Of a stretch of 64,000 bases of DNA, positions 5,526 to 23,428 are shown in pieces (position 1 is the stretch's first letter; each line of letters opens with the position of its first letter). Position numbers and translations under genes: made by a program. This DNA is from an uncultured Sphingomonadaceae bacterium. Its GTDB lineage: Bacteria > Pseudomonadota > Alphaproteobacteria > Sphingomonadales > Sphingomonadaceae. Location of the stretch: contig CANLSQ010000001.1 in NCBI GenBank assembly GCA_947493955.1, positions 186,001 to 250,000 on the forward strand, given 5' to 3'. The notes below the pieces were generated by a model that was given only the letters and a program-made list of their open reading frames with translations, had not been told where the DNA came from and ran no database searches.

Positions 5526-5660
5526 TGTCCGCTATCAGCACGCATTCACCGGAGCGCCCGAGTCTGAATATGGGGCGCAAAGCAGTCATTGGAGGTGGTT
5601 GATAATTACTCTTATGTTGAAGGGCAGTGCGTTGAAGTCCGCTTTACCCCGAAAGCCGAG
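5526..5660. repeat. Degenerate copy of the dispersed TGTCCGC repeat
   Basis: Contains TTGTCCGCTATC at the left, a GGGGCGCAAAG core, the phrase CTTATGTTGAAGGGCAG shared with ~4790, and GTCCGCTTTACCCCGAAAG at the right, which runs into the end of the LacI-type gene. Together with 5381-5525, where I see no gene, this fills the gap between the SDR fragment and the regulator. Confidence 0.6.
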
Positions 5661-6669
5661 CTGAAGTCCCTTCCATCAAAATACCGGAAAACACTCTTTT
5701 CTCATTTGCGATTTCCGGGTTTTCAATACGTTCTATCAGCATGTTGACAGCGGCTTCAGTCATGCGCCCAACTGGTTGGCGCACAGTGCTGAGGTCAAAA
5801 CTTAGCCAATTTGCAGGGCCAACACCGTCAAATCCAACGACAGAAACATCATCCGGCACTTTCAGGTCATGCTCGAAACGCAGGGAATCAATCACGCCGA
5901 TCGCACTCATATCATTCACGCACATGATGGCATCGGGAATATTTCCATGTTTATCGAGTATTTTGTCAATTGCGGCAGCCCCGCATTCATAAGAAAAATC
6001 GCCATCAATTTTGACGATATCGGTCATTCCCAGCTCTCTAAGACGCGCTTCACTTGCTTGCTCTCGCTCTTGTCCGACGACAGAATCTGGCGGACCGCAA
6101 ATAATAGCTGCGCTGTTATGCCCGGATTCAACCAGACCAGTTGCAAGCGTTTCGGCACCCTCTGCTTGATCGCAGCATACCGCGCTTGCGCTGTGATCGT
6201 TGGAATGCCGGTTGTAGAAAACCAGAGGCTTTTTCCGGCGCGAAAATTCGGCGATTTGTTTTTCGGAAAGTTTGGCGGCAGCTATCACCCCGTCGACTTG
6301 ATATTGCCAGATCTGTTGCAACGCATCTTCCGCATCGCTCTCTGTTTCAAGCGCGAACAGCAACACACGAATACCGCGTTTTGAAAACCGCTGACCAAGT
6401 TGCGCCAGGACTTCAGGATAATATAGATTGGTCAGATTGGGAATAATCACGGCGACAGAATTTGAACGTTTGGTGATCAGACTTCTTGCAATCGCGTTGG
6501 GTTCGTATCCCAGCTCCTCTGCGGCTATCCTGACCTTTTCTCTCGTTTTTGCAGAAACTGACGCTCCGGCCTTGTAGCAACGAGAGACAGCAGATTGAGA
6601 CACTCCAGCCTTCTTTGCAACATCATAGGATGTGACGGGCTTACCTCTACGTTTCTCAATATCTGCCAT
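5644..6669 (-). CDS. LacI/GalR-family transcriptional regulator
   Basis: Binds DNA as a dimer and responds to a small-molecule ligand. The 341-aa product has the N-terminal HTH (SYDVAKKAGVSQSAVSRCYK, residues ~13-32), the hinge-helix region NAIARSL, and a periplasmic-binding-protein-like sensor domain (VAVIIPNLTN at the start; ICGPPDS, FDGVGPANW and STVRQP further on). ATG at 6669 is chosen with a weak GAGGGG upstream; an in-frame GTG at 6702 would add 11 residues. It is transcribed away from the TonB receptor gene. The intergenic region holds two copies of a palindrome that recurs before the neighbouring operons (6790, 6936, 10724, 10822, 16415, 17773, 22249). The central CG and TG...CA ends fit LacI-family operators, so this protein is the obvious candidate regulator; that link is inference. 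Confidence 0.93.
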   Translation of the reverse strand: MADIEKRRGKPVTSYDVAKKAGVSQSAVSRCYKAGASVSAKTREKVRIAAEELGYEPNAIARSLITKRSNSVAVIIPNLTNLYYPEVLAQLGQRFSKRGIRVLLFALETESDAEDALQQIWQYQVDGVIAAAKLSEKQIAEFSRRKKPLVFYNRHSNDHSASAVCCDQAEGAETLATGLVESGHNSAAIICGPPDSVVGQEREQASEARLRELGMTDIVKIDGDFSYECGAAAIDKILDKHGNIPDAIMCVNDMSAIGVIDSLRFEHDLKVPDDVSVVGFDGVGPANWLSFDLSTVRQPVGRMTEAAVNMLIERIENPEIANEKRVFSGILMEGTSARLSG

Positions 6670-6789
6670 GTCTTTGGTTACCCCTCGCCGCTGTACCGGC
6701 ACATCGTAGCTGTGACAGCCTTTCTATCAACAAAGCTACTGCCGATTGCAAGGCACCAGTGATATACCGATTAAGTGGTTCCAAAAAAA

Positions 6790-6803
6790 TGCATGCGCAT
6801 GCA
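6790..6803. promoter_or_regulatory. LacI-type operator candidate 1
   Basis: TGCATGCGCATGCA, a perfect 14-bp palindrome with central CG. It is 121 bp upstream of the regulator start and may serve autoregulation. It is the most divergent copy of the set, differing at the bases flanking the central CG. Confidence 0.6.
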
Positions 6804-6935
6804 CCAGTACATTCAATATTCAACCGGAACGTCTCCAGTGTATCAGATAGGCAGAAATTTATGTCTAATATATATTATTGATAATAAACAATAATATTCC
6901 AAATCTGGCAAATCAGCAACAGTATCTCAGCATTT

Positions 6936-6949
6936 TGCATTCGAAGTCA
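6936..6949. promoter_or_regulatory. LacI-type operator candidate 2 (TonB receptor)
   Basis: TGCATTCGAAGTCA, identical to the copy at 22249 and to the reverse complement of the copy at 10724. It lies 79 bp before the TonB-dependent receptor start. Confidence 0.75.
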
Positions 6950-7027
6950 TTATTTTATTGCCATATTGCACGGTTGTGGATATCAAAATTTCAAACAGCG
7001 TTTGCATAAATTTAGGGAGGGAGTCGT

Positions 7028-9493
7028 ATGGCTATATCAATTACAAAGAAATTAATGCTCGGTGCGTCAGGTAGTGCGTTGGCTATCGGAGGCTTTGCTC
7101 CGGCATATGCACAAGACGAGGCGGGTGCCGAAGATAGCAATGTAATCATTGTTACAGCGAACAAGAAAGAAGAGAGCATCCAGGATGTCAGCCTTTCTAT
7201 TCAGGCTTTTGATGCCGCAGCGCTCGACAAAGCAGGTATTACCGATGCGTCTCGGTTGGAACTTTTGGTATCAGGCGTTAACTACGCGTTTTCGGGCAAT
7301 GACGCGAAATTCAATGTTCGTGGCGCGAACTCGAACAATACTTTTGCAGACAACGGCTCAATCGTCGGCGCTTATGTGGACGGTGTTTACAAAGCACGGG
7401 CGTCGCAGCAAACACGGGCATTTTTTGACGTAGAGCGGGTTGAGTTCCTGAAAGGTCCGCAAGGAACTTTATATGGCCGTAATACATTTGCCGGTGCGCT
7501 AAACCTTCACACCACAAAGCCGGACCTCACAGACTTCTCAGCAGGGATAGAGGTCGGCTACGAGCGGTTCGATAGCGTCAAAGCCGAAGGATTTATCAAT
7601 GTTCCGCTCGGCGATACATTTGCTGTTCGTTATGCCGGCTATATCCAGAAAAGCGATGGCTTCATTAACAATCTTGCCGGTCCAGATATTGGTCAACAGG
7701 ATGATAAAGGTTTCCGGATCAGCGCGCTTTGGGAGCCCACCGACAATTTCAATCTGATCGCCAGGCTGCAACATACGGCTGAAGATGGGCGCGAAGCTGG
7801 CCTTTTTGGCTATACCTTCCTGTGCCGGAATGTGACTCCATCAGGCCATACTGATGCCTTTGGATCAGAGCGCGATTGTATCAATCCCAACCGCGGTTCT
7901 GCAGGCTTGGGGCCAGCAGCAAATAGTGGTGCTCCTGGTTCTGGCCCTCATACCATCGCGCAAGACTATGTGCCTGATGTGAATTTGGAAGAAACGGTTG
8001 TGTCGCTAGAGGCCAATCTTGACCTCGGTGCTGTCTCGATCAAGTCGATCAGCTCCTACACGGATTTCCAGAACCTGTTTGGGTTTGATTTTGATTTCGG
8101 GCCAAACCCACATGCCATTGGCGGCTTTGATGAAACACTGGAATCCTATAGCCAAGAATTCCAGTTCAACACCAATTTCGATGGGCCGTTTAACCTGACG
8201 GCAGGCGCTTATTATTCCAAAGAGGACACTTTTTATAGCTTCTCGATCTACAACCAGACGGTTCGCGATCCCGCTTTCCCGCGCGTAGTGGCTCCTGTTT
8301 TGGATAATGCGGGCAATCCGGTTCTGGATGGAATGGGCAATCCGTTGTCGCTGCCTGTTTTGACGGCAACGCCAACTGTTGGCTTGAACCGCAGTCTCAA
8401 TGGATTTTTTGCAGACAGTGCTTTTTTGGATATCGAAACATTCGGTATCTATGGACAAGCAGAGTTTGAACTCACCGATCAATTGCGTATCATCGGTGGT
8501 ATTCGGTACAGTTCAGAGAAGAAAGAACTGACCGGCGGCGGTAGTAATTTTACCGCTAACGGCCCTGTAACCGTCGTTCCAGGAGCTGCTGGTTCGTCTC
8601 CCGTCATCATTCCTGATAGCCGCGATGTATTTCTCATCAACGAAAACGCCGCTGGTGCCAATACGGCCAGCCGGACCTTCAACAATGTCGATTATAAAGT
8701 CGGCATTGAATTTGATGTAGCTGATGACGTTCTGCTTTATGCCAACACGGCAACAGGTTTTCTGTCTGGTGTTGTAAACAACAATGGTTCAACGACTGAT
8801 CAGCAAGATTCGCAAGTATATGAAATCGGCCTGAAGAGCATTTTGTTTGACGGCGATCTGACGTTCAACCTCGCAGGACATTATACCGAATATTCCAATC
8901 TTCTGTCGCAGTTCCAGGTCATTGATCCCAATACCGGAATTGGTGTTACATTTAGTGAAAACGGCGGTTCGATCGAAGCCTATGGTGTGGAATTGGAAGC
9001 GGTTTATCGACCAACGCAAGAGTTGACCCTGGCGATGAATGCCGCTTGGCAGGATGTGCAGTTTGGAACATTTGGTCAAACAAGTCCTTATCAATTGAAC
9101 AATGGCACCACGACTACCTTTGTGGATCTGTCAGGAGAAACACCAACATTCTCACCCGATCTGACCGTGTCCCTAACCGGCTCTTATGAATTTGATCTGG
9201 GCGAAGATTTTGGTTTCCTGACACCATATGTCCAGTTCTATTATAGTGACGGATTTGGAACATCGAATTTGTTCGCCATTGATCCAGCCGCGTTCCAGAG
9301 CAGTTATACCAAAACCGACATACGTTTGGTTTGGGACTCGCCTGATCGGAACTATTCTATCGAAGCCTTTATCGAGAATATTGAAGATGAAGCAGTTCTG
9401 TCGCGGAGTAACAATAATGGCGGGGACGACTTGCTACAGTCTTCCTACCTCTATCCGCAAAATTATGGACTGCGTCTGAAGGCGCGGTTCTGA
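7028..9493 (+). CDS. TonB-dependent receptor
   Basis: Outer-membrane gated channel for active, TonB/ExbBD-driven uptake of a substrate. The 821-aa product has a signal peptide (cut near AYAQ, residue ~29), a TonB-box-like stretch NVIIVTANKKEE, a plug domain (DVSLSIQAF to about residue 165, with NVRGANSNN and GPQGTLYGRNTFAGALN) and a 22-strand barrel ending in a terminal Phe (GLRLKARF). ATG at 7028 follows AGGGAGGGAG. It diverges from the LacI-type regulator and carries operator candidates upstream, and two hairpins follow its stop. As the only outer-membrane receptor in the regulon it should import the regulon's substrate. The sequence does not tell whether that is a glycan, aromatic or other compound. 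Confidence 0.95.
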   Translation: MAISITKKLMLGASGSALAIGGFAPAYAQDEAGAEDSNVIIVTANKKEESIQDVSLSIQAFDAAALDKAGITDASRLELLVSGVNYAFSGNDAKFNVRGANSNNTFADNGSIVGAYVDGVYKARASQQTRAFFDVERVEFLKGPQGTLYGRNTFAGALNLHTTKPDLTDFSAGIEVGYERFDSVKAEGFINVPLGDTFAVRYAGYIQKSDGFINNLAGPDIGQQDDKGFRISALWEPTDNFNLIARLQHTAEDGREAGLFGYTFLCRNVTPSGHTDAFGSERDCINPNRGSAGLGPAANSGAPGSGPHTIAQDYVPDVNLEETVVSLEANLDLGAVSIKSISSYTDFQNLFGFDFDFGPNPHAIGGFDETLESYSQEFQFNTNFDGPFNLTAGAYYSKEDTFYSFSIYNQTVRDPAFPRVVAPVLDNAGNPVLDGMGNPLSLPVLTATPTVGLNRSLNGFFADSAFLDIETFGIYGQAEFELTDQLRIIGGIRYSSEKKELTGGGSNFTANGPVTVVPGAAGSSPVIIPDSRDVFLINENAAGANTASRTFNNVDYKVGIEFDVADDVLLYANTATGFLSGVVNNNGSTTDQQDSQVYEIGLKSILFDGDLTFNLAGHYTEYSNLLSQFQVIDPNTGIGVTFSENGGSIEAYGVELEAVYRPTQELTLAMNAAWQDVQFGTFGQTSPYQLNNGTTTTFVDLSGETPTFSPDLTVSLTGSYEFDLGEDFGFLTPYVQFYYSDGFGTSNLFAIDPAAFQSSYTKTDIRLVWDSPDRNYSIEAFIENIEDEAVLSRSNNNGGDDLLQSSYLYPQNYGLRLKARF

Positions 9494-9540
9494 TAATCGC
9501 ACCCCGGTCCTCGACCGGGGGACTCAGTTAAACAGGGGGT

Positions 9541-9568
9541 GGAAGGATCAAAGGCAAGCGATCCTTCC
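9541..9568. other. Hairpin upstream of the receptor terminator
   Basis: GGAAGGATC and GATCCTTCC form a perfect 9-bp stem around a 10-base loop just before the terminator. A smaller GC-rich hairpin (CCCCGGT/ACCGGGG) lies at 9502-9520. Such stacked hairpins may protect the mRNA 3' end; this is inference. Confidence 0.6.
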
Positions 9569-9573
9569 AATTT

Positions 9574-9603
9574 GGGAGAGGTGTTTCACCTCTCCCTTTT
9601 TTT
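9574..9603 (+). terminator. Rho-independent terminator of the TonB receptor gene
   Basis: GGGAGAGGTG pairs perfectly with CACCTCTCCC around a TTT loop and is followed by a run of seven T. It separates the receptor from the convergent SnoaL-like gene. Confidence 0.9.
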
Positions 9604-9662: not shown

Positions 9663-10673
9663 TTATAGTCCCTGCATCAGGCGATTGCGCTCCAACAGGT
9701 CGAGACCTTGCACGAAGAAATAGTGTAATAGATCAATATATACCCAGTTCTCGGAGAGTCTGTCGCCGTCGCGGCGATAGATATCAACGACGCGCATTTC
9801 GCTGCCGCCAAGACCGACCGGCATGCCGAGAAAGCCACCTGACAGGCGGTTGTTCAGGTTGGGCCAGCCGAAGAATCCAGCATAATTTCCTTCGGCAAAT
9901 CTTGCCACATGACCGTTGTAGACCTTGTCAGTCAGGCCTTCTCGAAAAGGATATTGATGCTGCTGCTGATATCGCTCAATCGTGTAGGTTGAGCCAATAC
10001 CGGTTGGCCCATACCACGCCATATCTTCATGCCAGCTTTGGGCAAGATATTCCGGCGGACATCTATCATCACCTGACTTGTTGAGCTGATCAAGGTCCTC
10101 AATCATCTGGTTGAGTATCTGCATGGTGCGACTGGCCTCTGCAGGGACCACCGGTTCATTCTGGATGCCATCATTTGTTTTTGGACCAGGCTTGATAATG
10201 TCTGAACCCATTTGCGGCGGCAGCGGATACTGATCCGCCTGCTGCATAACGCTCAATATATCGCAGAAAAATGCTGTCTCTTTGATCTTGCCATCCACTA
10301 CGCAGTGAAATTCGGCATATGGCAGCATGGTCAGTTTGTGTTTCGGCCGAATGCCTAGCCATGGTTCATCAAACAATCCCATAAAATGTCCGCTGCTACA
10401 GACCCAGGTGGAGCTTCCGTCGTCAACGTCATTCTGTCCGGCAAAAAATATAGTCTCCCGGCGTTGCAAGGAATGAAAAGCGCTGTGCAGCGGGGTCCAG
10501 AACGCATCTACCGCATGTTTTGCATCATCTTTGTCGGAAAACGGATGCATTCCGCGCCACTGATATTCTGGCACGATATGGTCAGACAAAACATCGTGGA
10601 GGCCAGCCGATCCTGCCCGGTCAAATGCGTCCTGGTATTCTCTTACAATCTGTTTTGCCTTTTGTAATTCCAT
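9663..10673 (-). CDS. Paired-domain SnoaL/NTF2-like protein 1
   Basis: The 336-aa product consists of two NTF2/SnoaL-like cone-fold halves (about residues 1-150 and 175-336). The second half holds WYGPTGIG, EGNYAGFFGWPNL and ENWVYIDLL, clearly shared with the product of 22385-23428 (WYGPAGIG, EGNYVCETGWPNM, ENWVLVDLL). SnoaL relatives catalyse ring closure, hydration or isomerisation, but many have no known reaction, so I assign none. ATG at 10673 is preceded by GGGAGAG at a slightly long distance; a TTG two codons upstream is an alternative. It diverges from the cupin operon, with one operator candidate 51 bp upstream. Being one of three such proteins in one regulon is unusual. Confidence 0.85.
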   Translation of the reverse strand: MELQKAKQIVREYQDAFDRAGSAGLHDVLSDHIVPEYQWRGMHPFSDKDDAKHAVDAFWTPLHSAFHSLQRRETIFFAGQNDVDDGSSTWVCSSGHFMGLFDEPWLGIRPKHKLTMLPYAEFHCVVDGKIKETAFFCDILSVMQQADQYPLPPQMGSDIIKPGPKTNDGIQNEPVVPAEASRTMQILNQMIEDLDQLNKSGDDRCPPEYLAQSWHEDMAWYGPTGIGSTYTIERYQQQHQYPFREGLTDKVYNGHVARFAEGNYAGFFGWPNLNNRLSGGFLGMPVGLGGSEMRVVDIYRRDGDRLSENWVYIDLLHYFFVQGLDLLERNRLMQGL

Positions 10674-10723
10674 GCTCAACGCACTCTCCCATTAGCAACG
10701 ATATAGCTTATCTCATTGGAAAA

Positions 10724-10737
10724 TGACTTCGAATGCA
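10724..10737. promoter_or_regulatory. LacI-type operator candidate 3 (SnoaL-like 1)
   Basis: TGACTTCGAATGCA, the exact reverse complement of the copies at 6936 and 22249. It lies 51 bp upstream of the leftward SnoaL-like gene, and its centre is 98 bp from the next copy, a spacing that could allow looping between divergent promoters. Confidence 0.75.
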
Positions 10738-10821: not shown

Positions 10822-10835
10822 TGACTTCGGATGCA
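10822..10835. promoter_or_regulatory. LacI-type operator candidate 4 (cupin operon)
   Basis: TGACTTCGGATGCA, one base different from the copy at 10724. It ends 38 bases before the cupin start codon, placing it over the expected promoter or transcription start. Confidence 0.72.
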
Positions 10836-10873: not shown

Positions 10874-11824
10874 ATGACAATCCGTTCTCAAAATGAATCA
10901 GGCTCAGAGAAGCGCTCACCGGTTCAGCTGGTTCGATATGATGAGCTGATTCCATGCTACAATGCTTTCATTGACACCCGCACACCTGGATCGGATCAGA
11001 AAGAGAATTTCACCATAATTGGCCCCGGCGTCTCGGAGAACCCTGACCAGCATGTCCATATCGCCGAACCACATGGCTTTAACATCGGCGCAGCGCGCCA
11101 ACCGCCTGGCTGTGTCAACTCACAGCACAGCCATGAAACCGAAGAAGTGTTTTTCGTGCACAAAGGGACCTGGTCCTTCGACCTTGGCGAGCATGGTGAC
11201 GATGCCCGGATCACTCTGAAGCCCGGTGATTTGATATCCATTCCGACCCACGTCTTTCGAGGTTTCGAAAATATCGGCGATGACATGGGTTTTTTGTGGG
11301 CCGTGCTTGGCAGAGATGATCCTGGTCATGTGCTCTGGGCTCCAGAAGTTTTCAAGATGGCCGAAAAATATGGGCTTGTTCTTCTCGAAGATGGCAGTCT
11401 GATTGATACCAATGAAGGTGATGTCGTTCCCGCCGACAAGAAGCCGATGCCGGTTACCACAGGTGAGCAAGTTGCTGAGCTGAAAATATTCGACAAAGCG
11501 CAATTGCGGGCCTGTTGTACATTCTCAAAACAATCAGCCAGCCGAAATCGCAAGTTAATCGCCGAAGACGGTGAATTGGATTGGCCACATGGTTTTGAGG
11601 TCACTCAAACCCGCCTTGGTGAACAAGAATCGGTTGATCGTTATGAGTTTGCGGGTTCCGAGGTGTTGTTTGTCCATGACGGTGAACTGACGATAGAAAC
11701 GGCTGGTGACGAGATAATTGTTCGGGCAGGGGACACTGCTACAATCGCACCAGGATCGATACGGTCTTTTGTCAACAAATCATCATCCGATGTCGTTTTT
11801 TTGATTGTTCGCGGCAAACTATAA
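10874..11824 (+). CDS. Double-cupin protein
   Basis: The 316-aa bicupin has a first barrel (about 65-145) that keeps a metal site: HSH with His85 and His87, Glu91, and His126 in PTHVFRGF. The second barrel (about 225-310) has lost these residues (EQESVDRYEF and GSIRSF), so only one metal centre is expected. Such proteins include dioxygenases, isomerases and binding proteins; the reaction here is not identifiable. ATG at 10874 follows AAGGG. It is the first gene of a rightward operon (cupin, SDR, SnoaL-like, lactonase-like, RraA-like) and has an operator candidate immediately upstream. Confidence 0.85.
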   Translation: MTIRSQNESGSEKRSPVQLVRYDELIPCYNAFIDTRTPGSDQKENFTIIGPGVSENPDQHVHIAEPHGFNIGAARQPPGCVNSQHSHETEEVFFVHKGTWSFDLGEHGDDARITLKPGDLISIPTHVFRGFENIGDDMGFLWAVLGRDDPGHVLWAPEVFKMAEKYGLVLLEDGSLIDTNEGDVVPADKKPMPVTTGEQVAELKIFDKAQLRACCTFSKQSASRNRKLIAEDGELDWPHGFEVTQTRLGEQESVDRYEFAGSEVLFVHDGELTIETAGDEIIVRAGDTATIAPGSIRSFVNKSSSDVVFLIVRGKL

Positions 11825-11838
11825 GCTGAAAGAAGGCT

Positions 11839-12561
11839 ATGACTGCTCTGGAAGGGAAAACCGCACTCGTCACCGGCGCGAGCAAAGGAATCGGCCGGGC
11901 TATTGCACTGTCACTTTGTCAGGCCGGAGCCCATGTGATTGCGGTGGCTCGTTCGTCAGAAGATCTGAACAGTCTAGGCGTACGACTAGGAGAGCTAGGG
12001 GCAATTTGGGCGGGAGATGCAACCAGCGATGTATTTCTTGAAAAAATTGCTGCGCTAGAATCGCTTGATATCCTGATCAATAACATTGGCACCAACCGGC
12101 CGCAGCCTTTTGTTGAGGTAAGCGATGAAAATCTGGATGTAATGCTTGATATGAATGTCCGCGCAACCTTCCGGATTGCAAGGGAGGCGGCAAAGAAAAT
12201 GGGGCAGGGTGGTTCTATCGTGAATATGACATCGCAAATGGGGCATGTCGGATCACCGGGCCGCACAGTCTATTGCATGACCAAACATGCGATAGAGGGG
12301 TTAACCAAGGCAATGGCGGTTGAACTGGCATCAAAGAGTATTCGCGTGAATTCCGTTGCACCAACATTCATCGAAACGCCAATGACTAAGCCAATGCTCG
12401 ATGATCCAAAGTTTGCAGATTTCGTTAAAAGCATGATCCCGCTTGGGAAAATTGGTCAACCGGAAGATGTTGCTGCAGCCGTGCTTTATCTTTGCAGCGA
12501 TGGTGCTTCGATGGTGACCGGGCATAGCTTGCTCGTCGACGGAGGATGGACCGCACAATGA
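11839..12561 (+). CDS. Short-chain dehydrogenase/reductase (SDR)
   Basis: NAD(P)-dependent oxidoreductase of 240 aa, the usual classical SDR length. TGASKGIG at 12-19 binds the cofactor, NNIG starts at 81, Ser132 and the Tyr145-x3-Lys149 pair form the catalytic triad, and the protein ends with VDGGW, all classical. NAD versus NADP preference is not certain. It is 14 bp after the cupin and its TGA overlaps the next start (ATGA), so translation is probably coupled. With the downstream COG3618 member, one possible role is oxidation of a cyclic hemiacetal or alcohol to a lactone, as in L-fucose dehydrogenase pathways; this is inference. Confidence 0.93.
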   Translation: MTALEGKTALVTGASKGIGRAIALSLCQAGAHVIAVARSSEDLNSLGVRLGELGAIWAGDATSDVFLEKIAALESLDILINNIGTNRPQPFVEVSDENLDVMLDMNVRATFRIAREAAKKMGQGGSIVNMTSQMGHVGSPGRTVYCMTKHAIEGLTKAMAVELASKSIRVNSVAPTFIETPMTKPMLDDPKFADFVKSMIPLGKIGQPEDVAAAVLYLCSDGASMVTGHSLLVDGGWTAQ

Positions 12562-13634
12562 GCAAATTTCCAATCACCCATGTCGCCACTACGGACATTT
12601 CCGAGATGCTTGACCCCGTTCCCGGGCGGCGGATGGATCTTCCCGGTTTTGACGACGAATTTGTCGACTTTCCCGATTATATTATCCGCATAACCGAACG
12701 GATATGGCATGATCGCAAGGTTGATCTGTGCCTGAAATATTATACTGAAAACTGTCTGATCCATACATTGTCGGGGGATATTGTGGGCGCACAAACTGTG
12801 GTCGATAATACCCATGCAACACTGGAGGCATTTCCGGACCGGAGGCTGGATGCAGACAATGTGATCTGGTCGGAAGACGGAGAAGCAGGGCTTTATTCCT
12901 CGCATCTCATTACCAGTAAGATGACCAATTTGGGGCCTTCTGAATTTGGTCCCGCGACTGGTAAAAAGGTCCGTGTGATGACCATTGCCGACTGCGCTTG
13001 CCGCGACAACCAGATTCATGAAGAATGGCTGGTGCGCGATTATTCAGCAGCGGTCATGCAACTGGGGTTTGATGTTGGTGAGACTGCACGTAAATTGGCG
13101 CAGCAAGACATCGCCGCCAACAATTCGCTGATCGACTTTCACAAAGCAGAGCATGAAGCTATTCAGCGCGCCGATACCGATCAATTGCCGGACAATTCAG
13201 CTTCGCAGGAAGCGCAAGATTTCGTAGCGCAATATTTCAGAGATATTTGGAATAGTCGCAATCAAGAAGCCTATGCGGAGCTGTATGATTATCGCGTTGG
13301 TGCCCGATATCCGGGACTAAGGGACTTTTATGGCCCGGACGAAGTGTCGCCCTATCATCAGAAAATTCTGGATACCTTTCCTGATGCCAAAATCCGCGTC
13401 GACCATATTGCAGACATTCCCTATCTGGAAGAGGCGCGTGATATAGCAGTACGCTGGACATTGGCCGGAACGCATAGTGGCGACGGGATTTATGGAGCGC
13501 CGACAAATGCCCCCGTCCTGATCTTGGCAGTCAGTCATTTTCGCGTGATAAATGGGCGTGTCCGAGAAGAAACTACCATCTGGGATGACGTTGCGGTCCA
13601 TCGGCAAATCGAGACCGTCCGGCTATCCACATGA
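12558..13634 (+). CDS. Paired-domain SnoaL/NTF2-like protein 2
   Basis: The 358-aa product contains two SnoaL-like halves: about 35-170 (ERIWHDRKVDLCLKYYTENCLIH to VRDYSAA) and about 215-355 (FRDIWNSRNQEAYAELYDY to TIWDDVAV). It differs more from the other two paired-domain proteins of the regulon than they do from each other. The start is ATG at 12558, overlapping the SDR stop as ATGA, with GGAGGA at 12541-12546; an earlier ATG at 12546 lies within that Shine-Dalgarno and is less likely. Its own stop overlaps the next start. Function unknown; cyclase, hydratase or isomerase are possible for the fold. Confidence 0.83.
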   Translation: MSKFPITHVATTDISEMLDPVPGRRMDLPGFDDEFVDFPDYIIRITERIWHDRKVDLCLKYYTENCLIHTLSGDIVGAQTVVDNTHATLEAFPDRRLDADNVIWSEDGEAGLYSSHLITSKMTNLGPSEFGPATGKKVRVMTIADCACRDNQIHEEWLVRDYSAAVMQLGFDVGETARKLAQQDIAANNSLIDFHKAEHEAIQRADTDQLPDNSASQEAQDFVAQYFRDIWNSRNQEAYAELYDYRVGARYPGLRDFYGPDEVSPYHQKILDTFPDAKIRVDHIADIPYLEEARDIAVRWTLAGTHSGDGIYGAPTNAPVLILAVSHFRVINGRVREETTIWDDVAVHRQIETVRLST

Positions 13635-15231: not shown

Positions 15232-16373
15232 TTCCAAAGCCGCCCGGTAGCGATCTCCGCGCCGTCCGCCATGCTTGCCAGCTTCGCATAGACAATATCC
15301 TCATCAACCGCACCAAATCCGGCGAAGGTTGAAAAGCCGCAGTCGGTGCCAGCGATTACACGCTCCCGACCCACGATATTGGCGAACCGCTCAATCCTTT
15401 GCGCAACCAATTCGGGATGCTCGATAAAGTTGGTGGTGCTATCGATCACGCCGGGGATCAGGATCTTGTCATCCGGGATATCCATTTCGGCAATCTCGGC
15501 CCATTCATGCCCGTGACGCGGATTGGAATTTTCAAATAACAACCCTTGTGGTTTGGCCTTCAGCGCAACCGGCATGACCATGCTCATCGGCGCATCGTGA
15601 TGATGTGGCCCTTCATAATTACCCCAACAGATATGCATCCGCACCCGGTCGGCAGGGACGTTGCGCAACGCATGGTTAAGCGCTTCTACATGGCGCATGG
15701 CCAGGCGTTCATAGTCTTCTTCTGGCTGATCCTTGAACATCATATGCTTCCCGAGACCCAGATCGGGCGTATCGAGTTGCAGGATATATCCGGCTTCCAC
15801 GATGGCCTCATATTCTGGCCGCATAGCTTCGGCGAGAGCCTCAAGATACTCCTCCTGCGTGGCATAGTGGCTGTTGGGCTGGAACAGAGCGATCACGCCC
15901 GGTGATGCCGCGTTCATAAAACCCTCAGCAACATCTGCATTCTCCAGAGCGGCGGTGAAATTATCAAGGTCATCCTGCAGCGGTTGCATGGATTTGACTG
16001 CCACAGGTCCGACACAACATGGGCGGGTATAGGTTGGTGTGCCACCGCTTGATGCCTGTCGCTCCAGAAATCCGGGAAATTCTTCCAGGTCTGAAGGCGG
16101 GGTACGCGGGCTGTCGCCTTCAAAACCGGTAATTCGGTCCTTTATGTAGGTCGCATAGGAGATTTTGCTCATCTCGCCATCGCTGACGATATCGACCCTA
16201 GCTTGGTCCTGTTTCTTCACAACATCAGCGACAGCATTACGGATCGTTTTGGCAAAAACTGCCTGATCCTGTTCTTCGCCATGTTCGTGGGCGAAGACAC
16301 AATCGGTCACCGGTTTGGAGCGTGGCAAGCTGCCGACATGGGTTGTCAAAATGCGATCGGTACTGGTTTTCAT
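15228..16373 (-). CDS. MetE C-terminal-domain-like (cobalamin-independent methionine synthase II family)
   Basis: The 381-aa protein corresponds only to the C-terminal catalytic barrel of MetE (~750 aa). It has the opening motif TTHVGSLPRS and zinc-site regions MHICWGN (around residue 248) and GTDCGFSTF (around 345). The same stand-alone family contains epoxyalkane:coenzyme M transferase and other thiol alkyltransferases. It lacks the N-terminal MetE half, and its operator-controlled catabolic setting argues against housekeeping methionine synthesis. A role in methyl or alkyl transfer from the substrate is inference. ATG at 16373 follows GAGGAG. It has its own operator candidate at 16415, so it is a separate transcription unit from the upstream HisD-like gene. 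Confidence 0.88.
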   Translation of the reverse strand: MKTSTDRILTTHVGSLPRSKPVTDCVFAHEHGEEQDQAVFAKTIRNAVADVVKKQDQARVDIVSDGEMSKISYATYIKDRITGFEGDSPRTPPSDLEEFPGFLERQASSGGTPTYTRPCCVGPVAVKSMQPLQDDLDNFTAALENADVAEGFMNAASPGVIALFQPNSHYATQEEYLEALAEAMRPEYEAIVEAGYILQLDTPDLGLGKHMMFKDQPEEDYERLAMRHVEALNHALRNVPADRVRMHICWGNYEGPHHHDAPMSMVMPVALKAKPQGLLFENSNPRHGHEWAEIAEMDIPDDKILIPGVIDSTTNFIEHPELVAQRIERFANIVGRERVIAGTDCGFSTFAGFGAVDEDIVYAKLASMADGAEIATGRLWN

Positions 16374-16414: not shown

Positions 16415-16428
16415 TGACTGCGAATGCA
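16415..16428. promoter_or_regulatory. LacI-type operator candidate 5 (MetE-like gene)
   Basis: TGACTGCGAATGCA, 42 bp upstream of the MetE-like start. It matches the 10724 copy with one change beside the central CG. Confidence 0.7.
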
Positions 16429-16448: not shown

Positions 16449-17732
16449 CTATCCCGGTGTCCCACCATAGCGGCGCAGCCGGATATCAGCTTGCTCCTTG
16501 TGGCCTGCAAATCCTTCCAGCGCACAGAGCCGCGAACAATATTCTCCAACCACAACCGAGGCCTCTTCGGTGACCCGCTGGAACGTACAAGTCTTGAGAT
16601 ATTTACCGACCCATAGCCCGCCTGTGTAGCGCGCCGCCTTGTTGGTCGGCAGCGTGTGATTGGTCCCGATCACCTTGTCGCCATAGGAAACATTCGTTTC
16701 CTTGCCGAGGAATAATGCACCGTAATTGGTCATATTGTTGAGGAAATAATCGGGATCTCTGGTCATCACCTGCACATGCTCCGAAGCGATATCATCGGCA
16801 ACGGCAACCATTTCATCATAGCTGTCACAGACAATTACCTGCCCATATTCTTCCCAGGCTTTTCCCGCGATTTCAGCCGTTGGCAATATCGTAAGCTGCC
16901 TCTTCACTTCTGCCATCGTGTCTTTGGCAAGTTGCTCGGAATTGGTCAGCAATACCGCCGGACTATTCGGACCGTGTTCCGCTTGACCTAGCAAGTCGGC
17001 TGCACAGAGCTCACCATCTACACTATCATCGGCGATGACCAGTGTCTCGGTTGGACCAGCGAACAGGTCAATGCCGACGCGTCCGAAAAGCTGGCGCTTG
17101 GCCTCCGCTACAAACGCATTTCCGGGGCCGACAAGTATGTCGACCGGATCAACAGTTTCTGTTCCTACGGCCATCATGGCCACGGCTTGAACACCGCCAA
17201 CAGTATAGATTTCATCAGCGCCGCCCATATCCATGGCAACAACAATTGATGGATGAGGCTTGCCTTCAAACGGTGGCGCCGTGGCAATAACGCGGGGAAC
17301 ACCAGCTACTTTTGCAGTCACCACGCTCATATGCGCAGATGCAATTAAAGGATATTTTCCGCCCGGGACATAGCAGCCCACGGCATTTACCGGGATATGC
17401 TTGTGCCCCAAAGTCACACCTGGAAGCGTCTCAACCTCAACATCTTTCATTGAGTCCCGTTGGATCTGCGCGAAATTGCGGACCTGTTCCTGCGCAAAGC
17501 GGATGTCATCCTGTGCTGATTGCGGTACCTGTTCATAGCAGGCGTCAATTTCCTCCCGGCTCAGCCGATAGGAATCGGGCGTCCAGCCGTCGAACTTTTC
17601 CGAATATTCGCGAACCGCAGCATCGCCGCGTTCTTCCAGGTCTGCAATAATGCCTTCGACAATTTCACGGACTTTGGCATCGGTTTGCATCTTGGTATCG
17701 GCATCAATGCCTTCTTTGAGCCAGCGGGGCAT
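16449..17732 (-). CDS. Histidinol-dehydrogenase-like NAD-dependent dehydrogenase (catabolic paralogue)
   Basis: The 427-aa product has the HisD fold and active-site landmarks: QAEHGPNS (zinc-binding Gln and His), ASEHVQVMT (the Glu-His pair), GTNHTLPT where HisD has GPSHVLPT, and EGFAGHKEQ near the C-terminus with the last His. HisD enzymes oxidise a primary alcohol to a carboxylate in two NAD-dependent steps. No his biosynthesis genes are nearby, and the context is catabolic. The GTNHTLP and [10 protein letters not shown] blocks are, as I recall, typical of HisD-like enzymes such as the sulfopropanediol 3-dehydrogenase HpsN, so another hydroxyl-bearing substrate is more likely than histidinol. 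ATG at 17732 follows AAGGAGAA; a longer reading to 17777 would run into the operator and is rejected. Confidence 0.9.
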
Positions 17733-17772: not shown

Positions 17773-17786
17773 TGCATTCGAATGCA
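17773..17786. promoter_or_regulatory. LacI-type operator candidate 6 (HisD-like gene)
   Basis: TGCATTCGAATGCA, a perfect palindrome and the most symmetric copy besides 6790. It lies 41 bp before the HisD-like start, in the 87-bp gap after the symporter gene. Confidence 0.78.
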
Positions 17787-17819: not shown

Positions 17820-19454
17820 TTAAGCGAGCTTTCCGAACAGGTAGAGGAACAGCATGATCGCGATAAAAACGACAAGAAGTCCCCATAACGGACGGTCAAT
17901 TCGTCCCGGCACAAGATACCATCCATCCTGCTTTTCGGCTTTGCCACTTTCCCGGAAATGGCGGATCTGTCCCGGCACTGTTTGTTCATGCCAGTCTTTC
18001 TGAAAACCGTCGAGAAGCACACTCGCGATCCACGATACAATGATATTGATTCCGCCGCCGATCACGACATACCACGGCCAGGCGATCTCGGGATATAGGC
18101 CGTTGATACCCATTAATCCGCCCAGACCGACAATTACGATCAGCCCGATGGCCCCTGCAGCAACGCCAACCAGTAAACCGCGTTCTGTCGTATGTTTGGA
18201 GAAGAACCCCATGCCGAACATGGCGAGCTTGGCGCCGACAAAATAAGAACCGACTTTCGACAATGTTTCCAGAATCGACCCGCCGCTGGAGATGAAAGCA
18301 TAAGCCATCGGGATGACTAGCAGCGCCCAGATCAATGTAAATATCCGAGACATGAGAAGATAATGAACCTCACTGCCATCCGCTTTGATAAACGGCTTGT
18401 AGATATCAGCAACGCTCACCGTGGAAAGCGAATTGAAAGCCGAGGATAGGCTGGACATGGAAGCAGACAGGATAGCCGCTGCCAATATTCCCATTAGGCC
18501 GGGAATGGCCAGGGTATTGGCGAAGGTGAGGATGATCTCATTGGGTTGCTCAAATGGCTCTCCCTTGAAATGTACGAAGAGCAACGCGCCGACGAAGAAA
18601 AAGACGAAGTAGAGAATGAAGGCAACATAGCCCATCAACAGATAGGATTTTTTCGCGTCCCCAATATTCTTCGCTGCTAGTGCCCTCTGCACCATCATCT
18701 GGTTCGCTCCATAGACGGTGATATGGAAAAGCGTCATCGCAAACACACCTGCCCAGACAGTGGGCGCGACGGTGAAATCAAGATCGGTATTGAGGGGATC
18801 CAGTTTTCCATTCGCCGCCAGAAATGTTGTCGCATCGGATAGGGGAGAAACTGCACCGAGGAGACAGTAGAGAATGATACCGGCACCGAGAAACAGGATC
18901 GCGCCTTGCAATACATCGGTCCAGATCACTGCATTCATTCCGCCAAGCAAGGTATAAATCAGCACAATCGCCGTCATGATGATGATCGATATTTTGGGAT
19001 CAATGCCGGTGATGAAAGTGACCACAACCGCGGTTGCGGTTAGTATCGAAGCCGTGGTGATGCTCTGGGTCATCAGGAAGATGATGCTCATAACCGTACG
19101 AGAGGTCGGCCCAAACCGCTTCTCAAGATATTCATAGATTGAAGTGACGCCGCTGTTGAAGAAAAAGGGCAAGAACAGGACGATTACGGCAAAGATGACC
19201 AGCGGATAATTCACATGGATTGCAAGCGCAGCCATGCCATCGCCATAAGCCCATGCCGGACCGCCAAGGAAAGAGAGCGCGCTGACATAAGTCGCGATGA
19301 CCGAGATACCGATGGCCCACCATGGCGCAGAGCGGTCGCCAAAATTATAGTCCTGTGCGGTCTTTACCCTCCGGCTCATATACCAGCCGAGTAACAGGTT
19401 AGCGATCAGATAAACCCCTACTATGACCCAGTTCAGCAATCCAAATCCCTGCAT
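17820..19454 (-). CDS. Sodium/solute symporter (SSS family)
   Basis: Inner-membrane Na+-coupled uptake protein of 544 aa with about 13-14 membrane segments. The N-terminus (LNWVIVGVYLIANLLLGWYMS) and the block DYNFGDRSAPWWAIGISV followed by SFLGGPAWAYGDGM are typical of the family, as are SASMSSLSSAFNSLS and SVADIYKPF in the middle. Members carry sugars, proline, pantothenate or monocarboxylates; the substrate is not readable. ATG at 19454 follows GAGGGGG. It is the last gene of the leftward unit SnoaL-like, aldehyde dehydrogenase, hydrolase, symporter, 13 bp after the hydrolase. It is the likely inner-membrane partner of the TonB receptor. Confidence 0.93.
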   Translation of the reverse strand: MQGFGLLNWVIVGVYLIANLLLGWYMSRRVKTAQDYNFGDRSAPWWAIGISVIATYVSALSFLGGPAWAYGDGMAALAIHVNYPLVIFAVIVLFLPFFFNSGVTSIYEYLEKRFGPTSRTVMSIIFLMTQSITTASILTATAVVVTFITGIDPKISIIIMTAIVLIYTLLGGMNAVIWTDVLQGAILFLGAGIILYCLLGAVSPLSDATTFLAANGKLDPLNTDLDFTVAPTVWAGVFAMTLFHITVYGANQMMVQRALAAKNIGDAKKSYLLMGYVAFILYFVFFFVGALLFVHFKGEPFEQPNEIILTFANTLAIPGLMGILAAAILSASMSSLSSAFNSLSTVSVADIYKPFIKADGSEVHYLLMSRIFTLIWALLVIPMAYAFISSGGSILETLSKVGSYFVGAKLAMFGMGFFSKHTTERGLLVGVAAGAIGLIVIVGLGGLMGINGLYPEIAWPWYVVIGGGINIIVSWIASVLLDGFQKDWHEQTVPGQIRHFRESGKAEKQDGWYLVPGRIDRPLWGLLVVFIAIMLFLYLFGKLA

Positions 19455-19467
19455 AATGCCCCCTCTA

Positions 19468-20235
19468 TTAGCCTTTAACCAAGCGCAATCTGGCCGGTCC
19501 AGTGCTTGTCGATTGCGCCGTTGGAGCTGTCTGTTTCAACAGATCTAACAGAGCATTTGTTACGATTTGTGGCTGCTCCATCGTCGAAAGATGGCCGCAA
19601 TTTGCAATGATCGACAGGGCCGCATCAGGAATGGCATTCGCGAGCTCGACGTGAATCTTCGGAGTGCAGACTATATCATCGCGCCCGGTCATAACTATCG
19701 TCGGACAAGAAATGTTAGGCAATGTGTCATGTACCGAGCAACGGTTCATGAGCGCGATGGACTGCTGTGCGAAAACTTTTTCGCCAAGCTTCAAGCCCAT
19801 GTCTGCCAATAGATTCAGCCGTTCTGACGTCCGGTTGCATTTCGCCAAATAATTTGGCTTGAGCTCTTCTTGCATGACTAGGCTAAGCTTGCCTTCTGCG
19901 ACCTTACATATCTGTGATTTCCGTTGCTCCTGAACCTTATCTGCATGGGCGGTGGTGTTGAGCAGGGCAAGGTGCGTGATGCGATCTGGAGCCTGTCTAA
20001 CAATCTCCAATGCAACAATCCCGCCCATTGAGAGTCCCGCCAATGCAAATTTGTCTGGTGCATCCATCAATACATCTTGGGCAATGCTCTCAATACTCGC
20101 CGAGCGAGTGATATCGCCATCAAGGCAAAGATAGCCGTTTCGGAATAAGCTTGCTTTTTGTGCCTGAAACAGGCGCCCATCGCACATGAAACCTGGCAGA
20201 AAGACTATCGGATGTTGCGGCACGCTGGCTGGCAC
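19468..20235 (-). CDS. Alpha/beta-fold hydrolase
   Basis: Serine hydrolase of 255 aa without a signal peptide, so cytoplasmic. The oxyanion segment LPGFMCDGRL is followed by the nucleophile elbow GLSMGG with Ser69, the acid probably in MTGRDDIVC and the His in NCGHLST. It probably cleaves an ester or lactone. The start codon is GTG at 20235, directly abutting the aldehyde dehydrogenase stop, which implies translational coupling. Family members range from esterases to ring-cleavage hydrolases; the exact reaction is unknown. Within this operon it could release an alcohol or acid for the HisD-like or aldehyde dehydrogenase. Confidence 0.88.
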   Translation of the reverse strand: MPASVPQHPIVFLPGFMCDGRLFQAQKASLFRNGYLCLDGDITRSASIESIAQDVLMDAPDKFALAGLSMGGIVALEIVRQAPDRITHLALLNTTAHADKVQEQRKSQICKVAEGKLSLVMQEELKPNYLAKCNRTSERLNLLADMGLKLGEKVFAQQSIALMNRCSVHDTLPNISCPTIVMTGRDDIVCTPKIHVELANAIPDAALSIIANCGHLSTMEQPQIVTNALLDLLKQTAPTAQSTSTGPARLRLVKG

Positions 20236-21756
20236 CTAAAAGAAGCCGAGCGGATCGATGCCGTGGCTCACCAGCACATTTTTGGTCTGCTGATAGTGGT
20301 TCAGTGCCATTTTATGGGTTTCGCGGCCGATGCCTGATTTCTTGTATCCGCCAAAGGCTGCATGAGCGGGATAGGCGTGATAACAATTGACCCAGACGCG
20401 CCCGGCCTGAATGGCACGCGACATCCGAAAAGCACGGTTGCTGTCTCGCGTCCAGACACCGGCACCCAGTCCGTAGATTGTATGATTGGCGATACCAATA
20501 GCTTCCTCTTCGTCCTTGAAGGTCGTGATTGCCAGTGTTGGTCCGAAAATTTCTTCCTGAAAAACACGCATGTCATTGCGCCCTTTCAGAAGCGTCGGCT
20601 GAACATAATAGCCGCCCGCCAGATCGCCACCGACATCGGCTTTTCCCCCGCCCATCAGTATCTCCGCGCCATCCTGAGCTGCGATAGTCATGTAACTCAT
20701 GATTTTGTCATATTGTTCCTGAGATGCCTGCGCGCCCACCATCGTATCAGTATCGAGCGGATTGCCTTGCTTGATGCCCTTGGCACGCTCCATCACCTTT
20801 TCCATGAAAGGCTCGTAGATGCTTTCCTGCACGAGTGCGCGGGAGGGGCAGGTGCATACCTCGCCCTGATTGAAGAAGCCCAGCAACAAACCTTCAGCGC
20901 ATTTATCGATATAGTCGGCCTCTTGATCCATAATGTCTTCGAAATAGACATTGGGGGATTTGCCACCGAGTTCAACGGTCGAAGGAATCAACGATTTTGC
21001 CGCATTTTCCAGAATCTTGTGACCGACGGTGGTTGACCCGGTGAAGGCAATTTTTGCAATCCGGTCACTCGAAGCCAGCGCCCCGCCGATCTCCGAGCCA
21101 AAGCCATTTAATATGTTAACCACGCCAGAAGGCAAGATATCCGAAATCATCTCCATCAGAACAAGGACGGAAATCGGTGTTTGCTCAGCGGGTTTTAGGA
21201 TGACACAATTGCCGGCAGCTAGGGCCGGTCCCAATTTCCAAGCGGCCATCAGCAGCGGGAAATTCCAGGGAATAATCTGACCCACGACACCAAGCGGTTC
21301 GTGATAATGATAGGCAACGGTATCAGCATCAATATCGGCAGCCGAACCTTCCTGTGCACGAATGCAACCGGCGAAATAGCGAAAATGATCAATCGCCAAG
21401 GGTATATCTGCATTCAGCGTTTCGCGGATGGCTTTGCCATTGTCCCAACTGTCGACGTAGGCGAGCTGCTCTAGATTATCTTCCATCCTTTGCGCGATCC
21501 TGAGCAGCATATTGGAGCGCTCTGCAACCGCGGTTTTGCCCCATCCTGGCGCTGCTGCATGCGCTACATCAAGTGCCTTTGTAAGATCGGCTTCGGAAGA
21601 TCGGGCCACCTCGCAATAGACATTGCCGTCCACCGGTGATTTATTTTCAAAATAGCTTCCATTGGCAGGTGCGACCCAATCCCCACCAATGAAATTCTCG
21701 TACCGTTTCTTGAATGTGAAAATCGCGTTTTCACTTCCGGGTTTCGCGTAAATCAT
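20236..21756 (-). CDS. NAD-dependent aldehyde dehydrogenase (AldB/ExaC type)
   Basis: Oxidises a small aldehyde to the acid. The 506-aa product matches the length and ends of AldB/ExaC-type acetaldehyde dehydrogenases, including the C-terminal DPLGFF. Catalytic residues are Asn165 (PWNF), Glu262 (ELGGKSPN) and Cys301 (GEVCTCPSR); GSTTVGH lies in the cofactor region. The start is ATG at 21756 after GGAGAGGA; the longer reading to 21822 overlaps the upstream SnoaL-like gene and is rejected. It is the second gene of the leftward unit. AldB-type enzymes accept acetaldehyde, glycolaldehyde and chloroacetaldehyde, so a short-chain aldehyde from the regulon's substrate is plausible. Confidence 0.94.
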
Positions 21757-21784
21757 ATCTTCATCCTCTCCAGCCGGTTTTGGT

Positions 21785-22204
21785 CTACATCCAGCCCAGT
21801 TCCGTGAGTGCCCAAGGTGCATTCCAGATTTTTACCATGTCGCTGACCTTGTTTTCATCATTGATGGTGATCGCATAGACATAGTGAGATGATGTCTCTT
21901 TGCCCGTGGCATCCACTGGACCACCTTCTCCAATATGTTTACCGGTAAAAGTACCGAAGAACAGAGCTGTGCTGCTGTCCTCGTCAAAACTGCTGGTTAC
22001 AATTCTATAATTGCATCCTTTTAGCGGCCCTTGACCAAGGCCCTGCATCCAGTCGCAATAGTCGAGCACCGTCTCTATATCAGCAATCGGCTCGCTTTGC
22101 GCTTCGAAACGCGCGCCATCGGCCACATATTGCTGGCAACCGGATCGGCCTTCCAATCCTTCGCATGCATGAAAAAACTTAGTGGCGATGTCCATTTTTG
22201 ACAT
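21785..22204 (-). CDS. Small SnoaL/NTF2-like protein
   Basis: The 139-aa product is a single NTF2-like domain: [13 protein letters not shown] at the N-terminus, [11 protein letters not shown] in the middle and the strand pattern [19 protein letters not shown] towards the end. It is the first gene of the leftward unit ending with the symporter. ATG at 22204 follows a weak GGGAA; the longer frame to 22504 passes through the operator and overlaps the divergent gene, so it is rejected. Function unknown; the cone fold suggests binding or isomerising a small hydrophobic molecule. Confidence 0.8.
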
Positions 22205-22248
22205 GATTTGTTCCCAAAATGACTTTTCTTTTCCCTTGTGAAGTTTTT

Positions 22249-22262
22249 TGCATTCGAAGTCA
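22249..22262. promoter_or_regulatory. LacI-type operator candidate 7 (divergent promoter)
   Basis: TGCATTCGAAGTCA, identical to the copy at 6936. It is 45 bp upstream of the leftward SnoaL-like gene and 122 bp upstream of the rightward paired-domain SnoaL gene. Confidence 0.75.
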
Positions 22263-22384
22263 ATTTGAGTTATTGGCGCTTTTTGAGCAAGGAATGACGA
22301 TAAACCAATGTCAGGGTATTGGCATCTCATGGCAATTGGGTCTGGAAGCATGTCGACATTCAAAATCACCGGGAATCCATCATC

Positions 22385-23428
22385 ATGACACCAAAAGATT
22401 TGAAATCGATTCTGGAAAATTTTCGCAAAGCCGCCGAGAATTTCGATCCTACGGTGATACGCCCGATCATGAACAATCTGTTCGCAAGCGATGCGACCCT
22501 GCATTTATGCCATCCGTTTGGTACAGTTCGGGGAGCTGACGCGTTGCTTGATGACTGCCTGATTCCGCTGCATCAGGCGATGCCCGATCTCGAACGACGC
22601 GATATGATCCTGTTGGCTGGAACGACACCGGAGGGGCAAGAGTGGGTAGGTGCCATGGGGCAATATATGGGGACTTATCTGGCTCCCTTTCTCGATATTC
22701 CACCCACCGGCGGCCTGGCCCATATGCGCTACCACGAATTTTTCCGCATCGAAGGCAGGAAGATCGTCGAGATGCAAGCTATCTGGGACATTCCAGAATT
22801 GATGATGCAGGCAGGTGCCTGGCCAATGGCTCCGCAACTTGGTACCTATTTGTGCACGCCCGCTCCAATGAGCGGAGATGGCCTTCATCTTACAGGCGAT
22901 GGGCAAGCGACGATGGATCATGTCATCGCGATGCTCGAGGATTTGTGCCGCTATCCAGCAGATCCGGATCCCAAGGTCATGAACTTGGAAAAATACTGGC
23001 ATCCACGATTTAATTGGTACGGCCCCGCCGGTATCGGGACTGCGCGCGGCATTTCCGGATTTCGCAATTGGCACCAGATACCTTTTCTACGCGCCATGCC
23101 TGACCGAAAGCTCGACGCCATGGGCGATTTATTGTCGCACTGGGTGGCCGAAGGGAATTATGTCTGCGAGACCGGATGGCCCAATATGCGCCTGACTTTA
23201 TCCAATGACGGCTGGATGGGAATCGCTCCGGCTGGTAAGGAGGTTCTTCTACGCAGTCTCGATTTCTGGAGAATGGAAGACGGCCTTATCCGCGAGAATT
23301 GGGTGCTGGTCGACCTGCTCGATCTATATGCACAGGTTGGCATCGATGTGCTGGCGCGTATGGGTGAATTTAACAAGGCTAGGAACTTGGGTGCGATTAC
23401 CCTTCCAGACGGCCTTTCGAAAAACTAG
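22385..23428 (+). CDS. Paired-domain SnoaL/NTF2-like protein 3
   Basis: The 347-aa paralogue of the protein at 9663-10673 shares WYGPxGIG, EGNY, GWPN and ENWVxxDLL in the second half and a matching first half (DLERRDMILLAGT against LQRRETIFFAGQ). The two paralogues bracket the regulon, one at each side. ATG at 22385 is favoured by a GGGA upstream and because the longer frame from 22319 starts in unconserved sequence. Its reaction is unknown. The W, Y and GWPN residues kept between paralogues are candidates for a pocket. After its stop comes a dispersed repeat element. Confidence 0.85.
   Translation: MTPKDLKSILENFRKAAENFDPTVIRPIMNNLFASDATLHLCHPFGTVRGADALLDDCLIPLHQAMPDLERRDMILLAGTTPEGQEWVGAMGQYMGTYLAPFLDIPPTGGLAHMRYHEFFRIEGRKIVEMQAIWDIPELMMQAGAWPMAPQLGTYLCTPAPMSGDGLHLTGDGQATMDHVIAMLEDLCRYPADPDPKVMNLEKYWHPRFNWYGPAGIGTARGISGFRNWHQIPFLRAMPDRKLDAMGDLLSHWVAEGNYVCETGWPNMRLTLSNDGWMGIAPAGKEVLLRSLDFWRMEDGLIRENWVLVDLLDLYAQVGIDVLARMGEFNKARNLGAITLPDGLSKN

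Follow-up and report, generated by a model that had tools for sequence, protein, structure and literature searches.

A predicted LacI-family regulon with unequal operator halves in a catabolic-looking gene cluster of an uncultured Sphingomonadaceae bacterium

We analysed a stretch of 64,000 nucleotides from an uncultured Sphingomonadaceae bacterium (assembly GCA_947493955.1, contig CANLSQ010000001.1, positions 186,001 to 250,000), hereafter called the window, in which seven copies of a palindrome accompany the gene of a LacI-family regulator at positions 5644 to 6669. We consider it very probable that these palindromes are the operators of this repressor, and that the units between 5644 and 23428 form a single autoregulated local catabolic regulon. 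A regulon had already been proposed by an earlier, sequence-only reading of the window, and that interpretation is now well supported by computation, as a prediction of binding and of co-regulation. The cluster is a new local regulon of the well-known LacI type, with an informative operator grammar. The regulator and the putative operators, all seven located by motif scan and ranked first by a weight matrix, are as follows.

5644 to 6669, minus strand: LacI-family regulator, with the helix-turn-helix (HTH) SYDVAKKAGVSQSAVSR and a periplasmic-binding-like effector domain; its longest open reading frame (ORF) extends to 6702 (GTG)
6790 to 6803: putative operator 1, TGCATGCGCATGCA, upstream of the regulator gene, in a position for autoregulation
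6936 to 6949: putative operator 2, TGCATTCGAAGTCA, 78 bp 5' of the TonB receptor start
10724 to 10737: putative operator 3, TGACTTCGAATGCA, preceding the gene for SnoaL-like protein A
10822 to 10835: putative operator 4, TGACTTCGGATGCA, preceding the bicupin operon
16415 to 16428: putative operator 5, TGACTGCGAATGCA, 41 bp 5' of the MetE-like gene
17773 to 17786: putative operator 6, TGCATTCGAATGCA, a perfect palindrome 40 bp 5' of the histidinol-dehydrogenase (HDH)-like gene
22249 to 22262: putative operator 7, TGCATTCGAAGTCA, in the gap between a small ORF and the gene for SnoaL-like protein C

The seven copies of TGNNTNCGNANNCA that had been reported at 6790, 6936, 10724, 10822, 16415, 17773 and 22249 were all found at exactly these positions, and no further copy occurs anywhere in the window, where 100 dinucleotide shuffles gave a mean of 1.34 copies (standard deviation 1.04, maximum 4). 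As the same reading had it, an exact TGCATTCGAAGTCA stands at 6936 and at 22249, and its reverse complement at 10724. All seven sites are even palindromes with a central CG. Their location in intergenic gaps, also claimed for all of them, held after correction of the start codons but not with the mechanically called ORF starts for two sites: the site at 17773 includes the earliest in-frame ATG of the HDH ORF as mechanically called (likely start 17732), and mechanical extension brings the site at 22249 into another ORF (likely start 22204). With corrected starts, five copies (10724, 10822, 16415, 17773 and 22249) lie 38-44 bp before a start codon, within the 38-51 bp first given, and the remaining two are farther off, 6936 being 78 bp from the TonB receptor start and 6790 being 120 bp from that of the regulator (6669). 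All seven are thus 38-120 bp upstream of start codons, inside the 30-140 bp range where most LacI-type sites lie. A weight matrix built from sites of other genomes, themselves picked by a pattern modelled on the motif of the window, gave the seven sites 18.5-25.5 bits and the next-best place in the window 9.0 bits. Moreover, the genome-wide scan proposed with the regulon does not return a motif at background rate. The loose pattern TGNNTNCGNANNCA matched 44 places in the 3.4-Mb genome, against 21 for its reversed control; the tighter TGMMTKCGNAKKCA matched 8 places with zero mismatch, 7 of them in this 17.8-kb cluster, and the eighth (C2:256907) lies inside a DoxX-like ORF. At one mismatch 29 places were listed genome-wide, among which a place before putA was examined in detail (TGCATTCGAATGTA at C1:281120-281133, that is L038:5121, 46 bp 5' of the gene). 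We do not count putA as a regulon member on this ground: the same sequence, with near-identical flanks, is also present in two sister genomes that lack the regulator (G320 and G321), and it is therefore no evidence for membership.

No protein other than the one at 5644-6669 came out of a genome search for the LacI-type HTH (PF00356), in which 28 candidates were scored, and this makes the pairing of operator and regulator close to unique. In Pfam this protein scored 49.8 bits for LacI and 90.5 bits for Peripla_BP_3, with PF00356, PF13377 and PF00532 above cut-off. At the level of the genus, the regulator (E <= 1e-60) was detected in 2 of 32 genomes, our own and G312, where it is 99% identical. 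These two contain 10 and 9 matches of TGMMTNCGNAKKCA, and the 30 genomes without the regulator contain 68 altogether (0-6 each, mean 2.3), which is background only. The seven sites recur in G312 with almost the same spacing, and this genome is therefore not an independent footprint. The patchy presence of the regulator in the genus suggests that the cluster was probably acquired horizontally.

Footprints were found in more distant relatives. A regulator match at E <= 1e-40 was present in 17 of 298 genomes of the family, the window's own counted. The nine regions surrounding regulators of 48-55% identity all contain homologues of the cluster genes in rearranged order, and eight of them contain sites made of the half-site words described below (word-sites); the ninth, L035, has looser sites only. 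A search of named genomes, limited to the best 80 loci among the matches listed, brought in, among others, Kordiimonadaceae, Parvularcula, Hyphomonadaceae, Woeseia, SAR92, Halieaceae, Alteromonas, Glaciecola, Brevundimonas, Sphingomonas and Novosphingobium. The motif outnumbered its reversed control 129 to 8 in the 57 loci with the closest regulators (L040-L094, L102 and L104), 15 to 2 in the other 23, and 26 to 1 in L027-L035. Loci L095-L119 (except L102 and L104), which encode more distant LacI proteins, were omitted from the site statistics and their motif count was kept apart. With a crude ORF caller whose wrong starts were left uncorrected, 48 of 170 motif places fell inside ORFs. Of 179 word-sites, 169 stood upstream of a cluster gene at no more than 300 bp from its aligned 5' part, as compared with 3415 of 22400 random positions (15%) under the same rule. 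Thus the comparison with relatives suggested at the outset came out in favour of the regulon: the same site precedes the same genes in other genera and classes, in rearranged clusters. Like clusters with the same sites occur in alpha- and gammaproteobacteria, and the sites are kept with diverged flanks in many genera. Locus L030, which is the same contig as L065, was omitted from the gene-family, word-site, polarity, promoter and regulator-residue analyses.

The regulators of like clusters are 45-69% identical to ours. In an alignment of nine sequences (the window's included, L027 left out), the residues expected to contact the operator, S16-Q17-S18, V20-S21-R22 and the hinge residues A53 and L56, are invariant. 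In LacI-family proteins the hinge leucine and alanine insert at the central CG, according to the part of Camas et al. 2010 available to us (PMC2978694). Among more distant LacI proteins, five (33-43% identical) share the sequence SYDVAxxAGVSQSAVSR and have a site of this kind no farther than about 210 bp from their gene (L096, L097, L099, L101 and L108). The loci of the five with TIYDVA helices (L107, L115, L116, L117 and L119) contain none. We also observed that four distant paralogs of 36-41% identity (L018, L011, L012 and L029) are accompanied by sites with an A beside the centre (TGCATACGTATTCA, TGCATACGCATGCA), perhaps a sister specificity.

We then surveyed all places that combine a perfect TGCAT half with the central CG. 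The partner words were TGCAT (60, each counted on both strands), TGACT (59), GTACT (37), TGAAT (14), CGCAT (9) and others at 7 or fewer; with six control halves, no partner word exceeded 14. Six test words gave 182 sites in 66 sequences; TGCAT was present in 171 of them, TGACT faced itself in 4 and GTACT in none. At positions 3-4 the pairs CA and AC act as units, CC being observed 3 times against 51 expected. GTACT drops the G normally read by Arg22. The window contains no GTACT site, and a comparison of 19 loci that use this word with 35 that do not revealed the same recognition helix in both; other differences in the DNA-binding domain were confounded with phylogeny. The two halves also differ in their orientation with respect to the gene. 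In sites with a single possible gene direction, GTACT was gene-proximal in 21 and distal in 1 (19 and 1 without near-duplicates). In mixed sites with one TGCAT half, near-duplicates removed, TGCAT was distal in 41 and proximal in 11 (p = 3.6e-5), or 31 and 8 when collapsed by clade and gene with a hand-set clade grouping (p = 2.9e-4). For TGACT alone the polarity was not significant (18 proximal, 9 distal, p = 0.12). In these counts, 6 of 85 oriented sites were removed as near-duplicates, and sites flanked by cluster-gene starts on both sides were omitted. That the halves are not equivalent and that relatives use a third half-site word had both escaped the sequence-only reading. No description of the GTACT word or of the polarity was found in the literature searched, which did not extend to RegPrecise or to the supplements of papers.

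The promoter geometry in relatives offers a possible reason for this polarity. The score for a −10-like signal peaked at offset 22, exactly 17 bp past a −35 box composed of a T at position −1 and the gene-distal half (TTGCAT or TTGACT), and the forward-minus-reverse difference remained significant when corrected for 31 offsets (p = 0.0036). At position −1, T was not significantly more frequent on the distal than on the proximal side (p = 0.09). This suggests that in relatives the distal half may double as the −35 box, and thus that repression may occur by promoter occlusion. We propose the following scenario. A homodimer of the regulator would bind TTGCATTCGAATGCAA-like sites; its hinge leucine would insert at the central CG, and TG(CA/AC)T would be read by its recognition helix (Q17, S18 and R22, in the numbering of E. 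coli LacI). The −35 hexamer (TTGCAT or TTGACT) would be supplied by the gene-distal half, and a −10-like signal would follow after 17 bp. The bound repressor would keep RNA polymerase off, because the distal half overlaps the −35 hexamer; the distal half would be held to a word compatible with this function, and the proximal half would be free to vary. The repressor would then be freed by a small molecule, which is probably either the substrate taken up or an intermediate, so that the receptor, the transporter and the enzymes are switched on together. More tentatively, and at somewhat less than even chances, the sites may follow a polar grammar in which a TGCAT half is fixed and its partner is TGCAT, TGACT, GTACT or TGAAT, the deviant word, above all GTACT, being gene-proximal since the distal half is also needed as the −35 box. 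This regulator family would then mark an uncharacterised catabolic pathway of alpha- and gammaproteobacteria.

Several results weigh against this scenario, or limit its reach. The −10 boxes are weak at most sites of the window, a passable one being present only at 17773 (TATGTG), at 10822 (AATAAA) and at 22249 in the direction of SnoaL-like C (TATTGG). A broader test, comparing the best −10 box over spacers of 15-19 bp in forward and reverse directions, was not significant (p = 0.11), and a scan with a consensus promoter gave no excess (17 found, 20.0 expected). No such site was detected in the loci of L106 and L111, which have the like helix SYDVARRAGVSQSTVSR, nor in the short loci L013-L016, L021, L022 and L024, which keep SQSAVSR with the tyrosine replaced. 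The site counts are not independent, because many loci come from related organisms. Finally, among the 64 loci with a close regulator, 10 lack an exact word-site (L094, where the contig end cuts the regulator, was omitted from this comparison). One of these ten, L043, carries CGCATTCGAATGCA, and five belong to Janthinobacterium or Rugamonas. In the latter five, no other cluster gene was detected (tblastn, E <= 1e-15) and no sites are nearby; a relative of the regulator that lacks the cluster genes also lacks the nearby sites, which we count in support of the regulon. In each of the three Janthinobacterium or Rugamonas genomes searched, the same ORF (beginning with MNLAKMKVGTRLGLGFALV) is preceded by a single TGACTGCGAATGCA, whose flanks have diverged, at 172 bp in L130, 110 bp in L132 and 166 bp in L134 (the site being at position 1501 in each). 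In the two tested (L132 and L134) this ORF is a methyl-accepting chemotaxis protein by Pfam. The regulator may have been re-used there, with the same DNA specificity and a different target.

Other explanations of the palindromes have to be considered. Some LacI-family proteins activate transcription, and the sites could be operators of a regulator that acts as an activator or a dual regulator instead of a simple repressor. The distances to the start codons, 38-44 bp for five sites and more for the other two, could be accommodated in such a scheme; however, activators usually bind further upstream, and the coincidence of the distal half with a −35 box in relatives, with a −10-like signal at 17 bp, fits occlusion, so that we regard activation as unlikely. 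It is much less probable still that another regulator binds the palindromes, for example the TetR protein encoded at 24819-25451 or a factor encoded elsewhere. The TetR-family gene is indeed only 1.4 kb past the cluster, but no site precedes the TetR-RND genes, the motif tracks the LacI gene across genera, and a central CG in an even palindrome is a LacI-type feature in what we could consult of PMC4052901. Hardly credible, in our view, is a mobile or compositional repeat lodged in the gaps with no regulatory role. The presence of the regulator in 2 of 32 genomes of the genus and the probable horizontal acquisition of the cluster would be compatible with it, but the persistence of the sites with diverged flanks in many genera, their word grammar and their bias towards places before start codons speak against it.

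The cluster can be compared with known systems. In the consulted part of the study by Ravcheev et al. 2014 (PMC4052901), local catabolic regulons of this family have even CG-centred palindromes, which mostly lie 30-140 bp before starts; autoregulation is frequent, and the regulator is encoded beside the genes it controls. The present cluster resembles them in its CG-centred even palindrome, its site distances and the place of its regulator, and differs in that the controlled genes are not a recognised sugar pathway. A word search for 'Sphingo' in the main text of that paper, to which its supplement and RegPrecise are external, found nothing. The recognition code of Camas et al. (PMC2978694), made for TVSR regulators, includes an asymmetric intrinsic degeneracy of half-sites. 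As far as the accessible part of that paper goes, our operator fits the code in its CA/AC variation at NT-5/NT-4, the pair read by AA-15/AA-16, in the pairing of R at AA-20 with G at NT-6, and in its mixed sites with one preferred half. Half-site degeneracy is thus already described for LacI regulators, and since that paper reports such asymmetric degeneracy at the bases read by AA-15/AA-16, TGACT does not represent a new kind of word. By contrast, the present regulator is of the QS-AVSR type, and GTACT replaces the G at NT-6 in one half; in the part of the paper seen, the code does not foresee this, and an orientation bias relative to the gene was not found either.

The remaining genes of the cluster, for which co-transcription of the central operon is inferred from gene spacing, are given below.

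7028 to 9493, plus strand: TonB-dependent receptor (Pfam)
9663 to 10679, minus strand: SnoaL-like protein A (Pfam SnoaL)
10874 to 15231, plus strand: probable operon of bicupin (10874-11824), SDR (11839-12561), SnoaL-like B (12546-13634), Amidohydro_2 (13631-14527) and RraA-like aldolase (14524-15231)
15228 to 16373, minus strand: MetE C-domain-like (Meth_synt_2) protein (Pfam)
16449 to 17732, minus strand: HDH-like enzyme with the motif G-K-Y-P-L (Pfam, 480 bits)
17820 to 19454, minus strand: sodium:solute symporter
19468 to 20235, minus strand: alpha/beta hydrolase
20236 to 21756, minus strand: aldehyde dehydrogenase, with 21756 as likely start and a longest ORF reaching 21822
21785 to 22204, minus strand: small conserved ORF of 139 aa
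22385 to 23428, plus strand: SnoaL-like protein C; longest ORF from TTG at 22319

With an outer-membrane receptor, a sodium symporter, dehydrogenases, lactonase- and aldolase-like enzymes and several SnoaL-like proteins, this set looks catabolic. Recurrent families were obtained by grouping by similarity the ORFs of 64 loci, those with internal stops omitted, together with the window genes, the window being one locus wherever the gene is present. They are bicupin (40 loci), MetE-like (35), HDH-like (35), SnoaL-like B (34), SDR (32), alpha/beta hydrolase (32), SnoaL-like A/C (30), symporter (20), MFS transporter (17) and amidohydrolase (13). An HpcH/HpaI aldolase family, in 36 loci, is absent from the window, and a family of TonB-receptor size is in 33 loci, the window's own receptor belonging to a smaller family. 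The 139-aa ORF has no Pfam match at E 0.001, and its similarity family comprises three loci, the window counted. On one side the cluster adjoins a formylglycine-generating-enzyme-like gene and two sulfatases (421-4591), where no operator copy occurs; at 24819-29754, outside the regulon, genes for a TetR regulator, a membrane-fusion protein and an RND pump stand in this order.

Among solved structures, the relatives nearest in sequence to the HDH-like enzyme are dihydroxypropanesulfonate (DHPS) 3-dehydrogenases (HpsN). As in HpsN, the catalytic Glu318-His319 pair, Asp352 and an Asp-Lys are kept in the alignment. The diagnostic HpsN motif, G-R-Y-A/S-H, whose His126 reads the sulfonate in the portion of PMC11382572 consulted, is however replaced by G-K-Y-P-L, where HisD has G-S-A-P-L, and it occurs in none of 38 members of the HDH-like family, the window included. 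DHPS degradation was therefore ruled out as the pathway, and we do not call this a DHPS cluster. The HDH-like group (the window and L027-L102) has motifs of its own, GG[KR]YP[LM] in 32 of 38 and GGRFPL in 6 of 38, unlike both HpsN and HisD, and makes up an unassigned branch. No pathway emerged from the literature searched for the gene set. The literature searched for the operator sequences returned poultry virus, yeast and strawberry matches that were unrelated by title, and a Streptococcus match that was part of a small ORF.

Altogether, the cluster offers a clean regulator-operator pair in a genome where no competing LacI protein was found. It ties the receptor, the transporter and the enzymes of an unassigned pathway into a single unit, which helps in finding the substrate. 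If the polar grammar is true, the promoters of this pathway could be found from DNA alone. Finally, a recognition class of the QS-AVSR type that tolerates several half-site words provides material for the LacI recognition code.

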